The position numbers were made by a program, and so were the translations under genes. Shown one piece after another: positions 1-14,299 of a stretch of DNA of 21,853 bases. The notes below the pieces were generated by a model, which was given only the letters and a program-made list of their open reading frames with translations, did not search any database and was not told where the DNA came from. Location: positions 1 through 21,853 of the forward strand of contig JAACEA010000411.1 of assembly GCA_009936695.1 (NCBI GenBank). Direction: 5' to 3'. Source of the DNA: Planctomycetia bacterium (lineage in GTDB: Bacteria > Planctomycetota > Phycisphaerae > Phycisphaerales > SM1A02). Numbering within the stretch: position 1 is the stretch's first letter; every line of letters starts with the position of its first letter.

Positions 1-28
1 ACCGCCCCCGGCGTCGGCCGAGGGCGGT
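1..28 (-). terminator. Second copy of the tRNA-Gly terminator hairpin
   Basis: Bases 1-12 and 17-28 form a stem of 11 pairs with one mismatch around a 4-base loop. The hairpin matches 2427-2454, which follows the intact tRNA-Gly, at every base but one (13, G for A). Here it lies behind a truncated tRNA copy and is the first hairpin after the dockerin-protein gene, so it may end that transcript. The repeat could continue left of the window; this cannot be seen. Confidence 0.7.
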
Positions 29-42
29 GTTCGTTTCTTCAA

Positions 43-89
43 AGCGGGTGAGGCGATTCGAACGCCCGACATTCACGTTGGCAACGTGA
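43..89 (-). pseudogene. Truncated 3' part of tRNA-Gly(GCC)
   Basis: Bases 44-89 are identical over 46 bases to 2468-2513 of the intact tRNA-Gly. The fragment runs from the first base of the anticodon stem, through the GCC anticodon, variable loop and T arm, to the 3' acceptor strand; 43 would be the discriminator U. The D arm and 5' acceptor strand are missing, so it cannot make a tRNA. The identity stops exactly at the 5' edge of the anticodon stem. This is the usual shape of a tRNA 3' end displaced by site-specific integration; a decayed tandem tRNA is the alternative. Confidence 0.85.
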
Positions 90-96
90 ATGTCGG
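66..96. repeat. Inverted-repeat core, candidate recombinase attachment site
   Basis: Bases 66-77 and 85-96 are perfect 12-base inverted arms around the 7-base centre ttggcaa, which is the complement of the anticodon loop. In the intact tRNA only the 5-bp anticodon stem is symmetric here. The added seven bases of symmetry lie on the side outside the tRNA identity block (90-96). Two inverted arms around a 6-8 bp centre is the known layout of tyrosine recombinase core sites that use a tRNA anticodon loop. The recombinase reading is inference; the palindrome is seen directly. Confidence 0.55.
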
Positions 97-198: not shown

Positions 199-2217
199 CT
201 AGTTGCAGGGGCCCCATGCGCGAAGCAGCATGCCCAGGTCCCGGGCATTGACGGTTCCGTTTCCATCGAGGTGCTCGATGCAATCGGGACAGTCGCCCCA
301 GGCCGAGTAGATCAGGGCGAGATCGATCGAATCGACCACGCCGTCCGCGGCGAGGTCACCGAGACATCCAGGGGCGTTCTCCAGACAGCCGGTGCATCCG
401 GGATACGGGTCCGCGTCCTCGAGTTTGAGGATGCAGGGAAGTTGCCAGCCGGGAATGTGCTGTTGGAGTGGCCCGAATTTGCCGTTGAAGATCCGGAGCG
501 TGACCTGGAAGATCGCCTCGTCCTCGGAATCGGAGACCTGGCCGGGGGCGTTCGGAGATGGAAGCCAGTTCAGTGTCGTGTCCTCGACCGGCGGGGGATT
601 GGGGCTGATCAGCACTCGATAGCAGCTCCGACCGTTGTCATCCACGGTCTTCACCGCTCCCTCCTCTCCGAGCCACGTTCGGTGACTGGTACCGACCGCC
701 TTCACGCAGAAGTTGCCGTCCGCGTCGCAGCTGCTGTTGTAGGTCGAGCAGAGGATCTGGGCTTCCGACTCGGACGAATCCGTGACGTACATCGTCAGGG
801 ACCAGTCGGAACAGAACCGATCGATGCTCGCATCCATGATCAGCACGTACTCGATGGACTCGGGCCGGTCCCCCCCGGTGACCGAGATCAGATTCGAATC
901 GTCGGCGCCCGCGTTCGAATAGGTCGTCGCCGTGGGATAGAACTCGTAGGTCCGGGTGTCCGCGGCAAGCCCCAGCTGGGCGATGTAGGCGCGGAGCACG
1001 GCCTTCGATCCGTAGTCGCCGACGTCCTTGGGCGGAACGATCCACTCGCTTCGATTGGGATCGATGGTGAAGCCGAGCGTCGCCGGATCGATCGGATTCG
1101 GAAGCGAGGGTGTGCCACAGAACAGGTCCACGGCGCAATTGAAGCCGGCGGTGATGTCGTCGAGCTGTTGGGCGGACAACCCGGCGTTCGAAGGGCCCAG
1201 GGTGACCGCATCGACTCCGATGGCGCTGAGCTGCTGGGCGTAGTACTGGTCGATGAGATCCGGGGGGATGGGTGCGTACACCAGCGCTTGAGCGGCGATG
1301 TCCAGATATTCAATGACGTCGAATCCCGGGGCCTGGATGGCCGCGCAGTCGACCTTGTAGGCCTGGTTGCCGTCCACGCATGCGGGGAGCTGACAGGGAT
1401 TGGCCGGCCAGGTCGCGAGGGCCAGCGGAATCTCGACCAGCCCCTGGCCCTGGACCCACTCGTAGCTCGTCGAGGTGAGCTGTCGACACAGGTTTCTCGT
1501 CTTCTCGAGGTCGTCGTATGGAACCGTGATGCGTCCCAGCATCCAGGCGAGCTGGTACGTGCTTTCGATGAGTGACGATGGATCGATATTCTCGTCGGAC
1601 TCGAGATCGTCTGCGTAGTCGGCGTCTCCCCAGTACAGGAAGTACTCGCGAGCACTGAAGTCACCCGACCGGGGATTCAGCGGATCGACGCTTCCCTCCG
1701 TGGACGATGTGGGGCCGGTGCCCCAGGGCGAGGCGTGGAAGAACGAATTCGTCCAAGGGTCGACGAATTGAAGCGAGAAGGAGGCCTCCTGCGGCAATTC
1801 TCCGGGGGCGGGCGGGAAGTACATCTGCGGGTGTGTGATCAGGACCGGGCCCTTGGAAAGATCGAACTGGCCGACCACGTAGAGACTGTCGGTGTTGGGT
1901 CGGACCACCGGATTCAAGCAGCTGGAGATGTCCGCGGAGTAGAAGAGTTGGTTCTGGAAGTACTGTTCGGCTGGAACGAGGACATCACCGCCATCCGTCA
2001 GGTATCGCTCGGTCGTCGAATCGCAGGCGGTCACCTGATTCGCCCTCTGGCTCATGAAGTCCACGAGAGGAGAGAGATAGATATAGCTGAGGAATCCGCT
2101 CCGATACTCGGCGGACACGCCTTTCTCGCAGGTCGGAAGGTAGGCGCTGTAGTCCTGTGCATTGACGTTCGACGCCGCCATGCAGACGAACGGCACGGTC
2201 AGAGCGATGGCTTTCAT
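199..2217 (-). CDS. Secreted DUF1254/DUF1214-like protein with dockerin-type tail
   Basis: The product has 672 residues. The start at 2217 is chosen because GGAGAAG lies just upstream and the protein then opens with a signal peptide (MKAIALTVPFVCMAASNVNA). Residues about 45-185 resemble DUF1254: note RPNTDSLYVVGQFDLSKGP, where the family has a PN-D-T-LY motif before a DLS-GP segment. Residues about 400-600 resemble DUF1214, with NWLPSPNAP followed by a V-TLRIF strand and a KFGP segment. The last 55-60 residues hold two Asp-rich calcium-loop-like repeats (DLAADGVVDSIDLALI and HLDGNGTVNARDLGMLL), each followed by AWG and Cys, as in planctomycete dockerin-like tails. The biochemical role of DUF1254/1214 proteins is poorly known, so no reaction is given. 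The gene is the only one between the two tRNA-Gly copies and looks somewhat less GC-rich than its neighbours. It ends with TAG. Confidence 0.8.
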   Translation of the reverse strand: MKAIALTVPFVCMAASNVNAQDYSAYLPTCEKGVSAEYRSGFLSYIYLSPLVDFMSQRANQVTACDSTTERYLTDGGDVLVPAEQYFQNQLFYSADISSCLNPVVRPNTDSLYVVGQFDLSKGPVLITHPQMYFPPAPGELPQEASFSLQFVDPWTNSFFHASPWGTGPTSSTEGSVDPLNPRSGDFSAREYFLYWGDADYADDLESDENIDPSSLIESTYQLAWMLGRITVPYDDLEKTRNLCRQLTSTSYEWVQGQGLVEIPLALATWPANPCQLPACVDGNQAYKVDCAAIQAPGFDVIEYLDIAAQALVYAPIPPDLIDQYYAQQLSAIGVDAVTLGPSNAGLSAQQLDDITAGFNCAVDLFCGTPSLPNPIDPATLGFTIDPNRSEWIVPPKDVGDYGSKAVLRAYIAQLGLAADTRTYEFYPTATTYSNAGADDSNLISVTGGDRPESIEYVLIMDASIDRFCSDWSLTMYVTDSSESEAQILCSTYNSSCDADGNFCVKAVGTSHRTWLGEEGAVKTVDDNGRSCYRVLISPNPPPVEDTTLNWLPSPNAPGQVSDSEDEAIFQVTLRIFNGKFGPLQQHIPGWQLPCILKLEDADPYPGCTGCLENAPGCLGDLAADGVVDSIDLALIYSAWGDCPDCIEHLDGNGTVNARDLGMLLRAWGPCN

Positions 2218-2426
2218 GACTTCTCCGCTGGGAATGTGGACGAGGTCCAAAATTGATCAAGTGACGTTATTCGGTTTGAACAGGGGAGGCAAAAACATCT
2301 GTTTAGTCGCCGGCTTCGAAAAAAGCAGGCCGTACTCGCCGCGATCGACGCGAAGCACGTCGCTCTCGGCCATGGGCGTCGGCCGGGGAGGTACCTTTCG
2401 AGAGCCCGGCCAACCCCAAAACGACA
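2218..2426 (-). promoter_or_regulatory. AT-richer upstream region of the dockerin-protein gene
   Basis: About 2245-2340 is clearly richer in A and T than its surroundings and probably holds the promoter of the gene starting at 2217. One possible pair on the minus strand is TTGCCT with TAACGT 17 bases later, but the match is weak. A 38-codon frame (2373 to 2257) lies here without a ribosome binding site and is not called. Confidence 0.3.
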
Positions 2427-2454
2427 ACCGCCCCCGGCATCGGCCGAGGGCGGT
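2427..2454 (-). terminator. Intrinsic terminator of tRNA-Gly
   Basis: Arms 2427-2438 and 2443-2454 pair with one mismatch around a 4-base loop. On the minus strand the hairpin is followed by TGTCGTTTT, a short U tract. It lies 12 bases past the tRNA 3' end and is duplicated at 1-28. Confidence 0.75.
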
Positions 2455-2466
2455 GTTCGTTGTAAA

Positions 2467-5308: not shown

Positions 5309-5339
5309 CGCGGCCCGACGATCGAATCGTCGGGCCGCG
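5309..5339. terminator. Bidirectional terminator between convergent genes
   Basis: A perfect 14-bp stem (5309-5322 with 5326-5339) surrounds a 3-base loop. On the minus strand it is followed by TTTCATTTC; on the plus strand by TCTTTGG. It separates the lipoprotein gene (plus) from the protease gene (minus), so it probably serves both. Confidence 0.8.
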
Positions 5340-10727: not shown

Positions 10728-10758
10728 GGGAGTCGGGCGCGTGATGCGCCCGACTCCC
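10728..10758 (-). terminator. Perfect hairpin between fasciclin and sigma factor genes
   Basis: A 13-bp perfect stem (10728-10740 with 10746-10758) has a 5-base loop. It lies 53 bases after the fasciclin stop and has no U tract, so it may be a partial terminator or a 3' end stabiliser that lowers expression of the sigma gene relative to the fasciclin gene. A small stem with a GAAA loop (10789-10800) lies between it and the fasciclin stop. Confidence 0.6.
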
Positions 10759-14251: not shown

Positions 14252-14299
14252 CGAAGAACCGCCCCGGACGACGTTGATCGTCCGGGGCGGTGTTCTTCG
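14252..14299. terminator. Strong bidirectional terminator
   Basis: The inner stem pairs ccgccccggacga (14259-14271) with its perfect complement (14278-14290) around a 6-base loop. Outer arms cgaagaa/ttcttcg extend it after a 2-base bulge. It lies between the small plus-strand gene and the minus-strand flippase-like gene, so it likely ends both. Confidence 0.85.

Follow-up and report, generated by a model that had tools for sequence, protein, structure and literature searches.

The left end of this locus raises the question of why a truncated tRNA gene should run directly into its own mirror image. The window, the stretch of 21,853 nt analysed here, is a whole contig (C283) of a 3.0-Mb draft genome (G000) in 592 contigs. 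It carries an intact tRNA-Gly(GCC) gene at 2467–2538 and, at 43–89, a truncated 3′ half of that gene, both on the minus strand. The half is 100% identical to 2467–2513 and lies within a 49-nt direct repeat (41–89 and 2465–2513, 100%), and a terminator-like stretch is also duplicated, with 1–35 (minus strand) being a 97% copy of 2427–2461. At the inner edge of the truncated half, positions 66–96 form a perfect palindrome. The sequence-only reading had described 12-base perfect inverted arms (66–77 and 85–96) around a centre formed by the anticodon-loop segment TTGGCAA (78–84). These arms are confirmed and, as the centre is itself nearly symmetric, the palindrome extends to 31 nt, with 15-nt arms around a single central nucleotide. 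The intact tRNA does have only 5 nt of mirror symmetry beyond the anticodon loop, as was claimed. The truncation itself had been placed exactly at the 5′ edge of the anticodon stem, and this has to be moved: identity between the tRNA copies ends 5 nt past the loop, so a crossover probably lies in the loop (78–84) and not at the stem edge.

The left-end truncated copy, taken here as an att-type junction, bounds a 2.4-kb cassette of one DUF1254 gene and a terminator. The only large gene between the tRNA copies is a 683-aa ORF at 199–2250 (minus strand), with DUF1254 and a dockerin match below the Pfam cut-off, for which a 96% identical protein is found in the congener G004. The DNA match to G004 is broader, as 41–2512 is 96.7% identical to L051:14873–17346, where the unit occupies another array position, between other cassettes and with both flanks different. 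This block includes the tRNA-Gly terminator at 2427–2461 (minus strand), which is thus carried by the cassette, and at its right end the two sequences diverge after the CGTG that follows the loop. For the same two genomes the chromosome beside the tRNA is 88.5% identical (L053) and the xerC region 85.2%. The 3′ half of the intact tRNA (2467 to about 2508) would then have come with the cassette and its 5′ half would be chromosomal, and the terminator-like stretch at 1–35 would go with the displaced 3′ half and belong to a next cassette, cut by the contig end. Positions 85–198 are the putative element-side arm, in the place held by conserved arms in other cassettes. The start of this arm is common to L051:14879, with no other match covering it among the matches listed, and the arm belongs to no arm family seen elsewhere. 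As in the anticodon-loop class of tRNA islands, an intact tRNA is accompanied by a displaced 3′ fragment in the same orientation, and junctions coincide with the loop in four cassette pairs and in most truncated copies; no integrase gene was found within the window cassette, whose one large gene is the DUF1254 gene. As in cis-mobilizable elements, an integrase-less unit has att-type repeats at both ends and stands in tandem, with tandem neighbours observed for the G004 homologue and presumed for the window itself.

The palindrome is more than expected by composition: perfect inverted repeats with arms of 12 nt or more and a spacer of up to 8 nt are absent from 20 dinucleotide shuffles of the window, and the real window has four. 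The other three (5309–5339, 10728–10758 and 14259–14290) are probably terminators, so real DNA has hairpins of this size for other reasons. Folded as a single strand, the window junction beats its shuffles on both strands (z = −3.2 and −3.6), as does the intact tRNA (z = −3.3), and the one other junction folded, from the arm family called arm A, is no better than shuffles (z = −0.18). The sequence-only reading had proposed seeking the 31-mer in relatives; the exact sequence occurs in 5 of 147 loci, all five being copies of the window itself. Neither this 31-mer nor the truncated-copy and arm-A patterns gave any match in viral contigs. Across 37 distinct element-side arms, including two doubtful matches (L093:9506 and 10576) and leaving out the window's own arm (12 of 12 mirrored positions) as a duplicate of the G004 homologue, the mirror match is 0–8 of 12, the exception being that homologue with 10 of 12 and Ns in its tRNA half. 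The mean over these 37 related and hence non-independent arms is 4.9 of 12, against 3.1 in shuffled arms. A weak symmetry of the core may therefore be general among element-side arms, and the complete mirror is confined to the window cassette and, within its Ns, the G004 homologue. The description of the locus as an att-type core holds up for the junction, with a loop crossover and element sequence right after it, and is not supported for the full mirror as a working feature, given the low match of the other arms. Judged by its sequence, 66–96 may be called a recombinase-core-like site, and nothing in our analysis shows that the palindrome hairpin matters.

Two other origins of the mirror can be weighed. 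A transcription terminator of the cargo gene would fit the position of the palindrome downstream of that gene and the presence of other perfect hairpins of similar size in the window; however, a scan of 1–2700 finds no terminator-like site at the palindrome, and the other arms examined, the G004 homologue apart, lack the full mirror, which leaves this explanation highly improbable. We put no higher the chance that the palindrome was made by fold-back (template-switch) copying, the alternative raised at the outset, or reflects misassembly at the end of a contig. In favour, the contig that makes up the window begins within a repeat, and the mirror reaches 15 nt. Another assembly, however, has this arm with this cassette behind it (L051:14879–17346), and the terminator copies at the two sites are not identical. 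A fold-back old enough to have passed to both the window cassette and its G004 homologue is possible.

Cassettes found in more than one context provide evidence that such units move. One case is L093:3510–8253 (G136), which is 98.7% identical over 4744 bp to L140:4736–1 (G112) from a different genus, against 69.7% over 789 bp (best local alignment) for the xerC region of the two genomes. At its right end this cassette adjoins an intact tRNA in one of the two genomes and, in the other, a junction with arm A; this implies recent movement, by whatever route. G136 has a completeness of 70% and the contig measures 12 kb, which leaves room for misbinning, though two contexts for one cassette remain. 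Its left end is a complete or near-complete tRNA copy in both genomes, and thus a cassette can bear a whole tRNA. Within L140:1–4762, the cassette has CoA-transferase-like genes and is bounded by the near-complete second tRNA-Gly copy; it is the one also present in G136. Other shared cassettes also exceed their backgrounds, with 94.8% over 1792 bp for L059/L060 (G001/G005) versus 80.9% in the tRNA flank (L062/L063), 88–92% for G004/G020 versus 73.7%, and 89% for G009/G178 versus 68.6%. Four cassette pairs diverge 2–4 nt past the loop segment; the G004/G020 block, which stops short of the junctions, is not among them. Cassette sharing and loop junctions together support site-specific recombination in the anticodon loop. 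In these draft assemblies we saw no matched empty and occupied tRNA-Gly pair and no excised circle. The phage records that match are two entries for one Agrobacterium phage, with 47 nt in common with the tRNA portion of the window cassette, and 559 plasmid records match parts of the G136 cassette at 60–90%, the best listed covering 45% of it and none 80%.

Homologous recombination between tRNA 3′ halves with their terminators (a repeat of about 85 bp) could instead be shuffling old islands, the loop boundary being a relic and nothing integrating today. Repeats of 80–90 bp do exist, some truncated copies are decayed, and the arrays of genus g1, that of the window, showed no dedicated integrase nearby. 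Such exchange would, however, create no new boundaries at the loop, and the inter-genus cassette of 98.7% identity with its two end contexts implies recent movement. We regard this explanation as unlikely.

Related draft genomes contain truncated tRNA-Gly halves repeatedly and in tandem, most of them ending at the anticodon loop, with varied cargo between them. Thirty same-strand intervals between copies span 298–5797 bp (median 2425); for this set the overlap of two G004 contigs was removed, two cassettes are counted in two genomes each, the gapped sites L055:5229, L058:8191 and L113:5141 were added by hand, and L058:6363 was left out. A second query variant was used in this search for other lineages. 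The truncated-copy pattern matches 4 of 181 family genomes in its strict form and 43 in its relaxed form, many of the latter being intact tRNAs. By reading of the matches, a truncated copy is clear in at least 14 of the 181 (G000, G001, G003, G004, G005, G009, G014, G020, G113, G136, G165, G168, G178 and G180), a lower bound because the patterns were strict and most of the genomes were not inspected singly; G025 and G186, which diverge a few bases later, are ambiguous. A few copies end short of the loop (e.g. L052:6116) or amount to nearly whole tRNAs (L140). Contigs of the genus mates G005, G006 and G007 end 2–5 nt beyond the tRNA 3′ end and the window begins inside the repeat, both of which fit assembly breakage at repeats. 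Most of these genomes are fragmented drafts, and single cases are open to misbinning. The sequence-only reading had seen a single island at tRNA-Gly; this is one cassette, apparently of an array.

None of the 30 array-contig proteins scanned, some from outside bounded intervals, matches a recombinase family; matches include a lipid kinase, a glycosyltransferase, a thiamine-dependent enzyme, pntAB, beta-helix, SOUL and a helicase. Cargo genes of the cassettes point in both directions. The element-side arms form families that are common to cassettes with different genes and from different genera and hosts, arm A being present in 4 of the 181 family genomes. Some further arrangements were noted alongside these. 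In another family of the order, L061:161–8645 (G048) has a row of four truncated tRNA-Gly copies, of which three share an arm. In G003, L055:3602–4689, beside tRNA-Gly, comprises three tandem copies, about 80% identical, of a short stretch; one scanned protein there matches the nitrile hydratase alpha family, and related copies occur in the G020 and G004 arrays. At L111:1973, a decayed truncated copy lies in opposite orientation to the other site of its contig and has an arm resembling that of L060:2272.

Two loci suggest which type of enzyme could act on these sites. In L090, from another Phycisphaerales MAG, an integrase adjoins a truncated tRNA-Gly copy (PHROG integrase, E = 5e-23, with no Pfam match), and in L111 (G165) a tyrosine-integrase remnant adjoins a truncated copy that bears the opening 14 nt of an arm A. 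At E 1e-15, this remnant or a homologue of it is found in 19 of the 181 family genomes, including G165, and in none of the eight g1 genomes. Twenty of their 22 loci hold an intact tRNA gene, always on the 3′ side of the integrase, with 9 tRNAs convergent with it and 11 co-directed, so that not all loci show the expected 3′-end arrangement; the two tRNA-Gly(GCC) cases are both convergent and do. In genus g1 two XerC/XerD-like tyrosine recombinases were found per genome, with one further integrase-like gene at a tRNA-Arg in G005. This gene (L109:5487–6490) is divergent, has a PHROG but no Pfam match and overlaps the end of tRNA-Arg(ACG), a possible second docking site, on a contig that ends soon after. 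The two recombinases of G000 are matched best by XerC and XerD models, just under the cut-offs, and those of the other genomes are presumed to be XerC/XerD. Both G000 matches lie on contigs other than the window, and among tyrosine-recombinase matches in 15 genomes only that of G165 is on an array contig. The absence of a dedicated integrase near g1 arrays refers to tyrosine enzymes as sought by Pfam, PHROG and one protein query together; the L090 integrase went unseen by Pfam, and an enzyme of still greater divergence could go unseen by all of these. Against the integron integrase model TIGR02249 (cut-off 265), the two recombinases of G000, the only genome compared, score 118 and 112 bits.

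Resident XerC/XerD might recombine the tRNA-Gly anticodon core themselves, as happens with mobile elements that exploit Xer, and seven of the eight g1 genomes, like each of G020, G180, G014, G136 and G168, yielded only two tyrosine recombinases. The core, however, matches the E. coli dif, which may differ from that of the host, at 11 of 28 positions at best, and integrases of another type adjoin such sites. In our view this role is very unlikely. With an integrase in L090, a remnant in G165 and, in g1, the Xer-like pairs plus the gene at tRNA-Arg in G005, we infer a tyrosine integrase that acts on the cassettes in trans.

Tandem copies are mostly cut at the loop, and cassettes stand in different contexts with junctions just past it. 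From these patterns it is likely that the feature at the left end of the window is the distal junction of a small cassette without an integrase gene that was inserted at tRNA-Gly(GCC) as one of an array. The incoming form would be a circle consisting of anticodon loop, tRNA 3′ half, terminator, cargo and element arm, which would recombine through the 7-nt anticodon-loop segment with the chromosomal tRNA gene. A functional tRNA would be restored by the 3′ half and terminator that arrive, and those already present would be displaced to become the truncated copy that bounds the previous cassette, if insertion proceeds in the direction suggested here. Repeated insertion would then give a tandem array, and recombination between copies could release or exchange cassettes. 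An autonomous element would supply the enzyme, a tyrosine integrase for which the inverted arms would serve as core sites. A broader proposal, that marine Phycisphaerales keep a resident integron-like gene-capture locus with tRNA-Gly as docking site, tRNA 3′ halves as cassette sites, exchange across genera and no dedicated chromosomal integrase, the recombinase being household XerC/XerD or transiently supplied, is tentative and on balance doubtful.

Much of this has precedents. Displaced-fragment tRNA islands, anticodon-loop crossovers, integrase-less accretion units and additive tRNA islands are already described (PMC4383910, PMC3146451, PMC4119200, PMC10872708). In Alteromonas fGI1 (PMC4119200) and Methylophilaceae fGI-2 (PMC10872708), a conserved tRNA is the insertion target for gene cassettes, as it is here, with repeats of the last 20 nt of tRNA-Lys in the latter. 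The repeat of the window type differs in being a 3′ half up to the anticodon loop, and the units, mostly 0.3–6 kb, each bring a tRNA 3′ half of their own, in many cases together with a terminator-like hairpin. The Dehalococcoides ssrA islands are likewise tandem and bounded by RNA-gene 3′-end repeats, and 15 have no integration module and may be mobilised with their neighbours; that system uses the tmRNA T-loop and a serine recombinase, in contrast to the tRNA-Gly anticodon loop and putative tyrosine integrase here (PMC3146451). Integrons and the integrase-less arrays known as CALINs share the plan of tandem cargo cassettes with one common recombination site (PMC8618304). Unlike integrons, our arrays have a tRNA half as site and cargo pointing both ways, with no intI found in G000 and no attI or attC identified. 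There is also a likeness to the Islander anticodon class, with its crossover subsite in the anticodon loop, displaced tRNA fragment and restored tRNA. Islander requires an integrase gene, retains a tandem array only where every island brings an integrase gene of its own and lists four tandems of at least three, so integrase-less arrays would be filtered out (PMC4383910).

Among the literature matches listed (titles and abstract starts), no such array is described in planctomycetes, nor is there a description of the combination found here, in which small units with cargo only, each bearing a tRNA half and in many cases a terminator, occur in several genera with no integrase found next to most of them. 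Integron finders search for attC or intI. These arrays thus point to a gene-capture platform that surveys can miss. We propose that they offer uncultured marine planctomycetes a route for exchanging small gene sets across genera, in which a crossover in the loop would rebuild the needed tRNA at each insertion, so that the docking site would stay usable.
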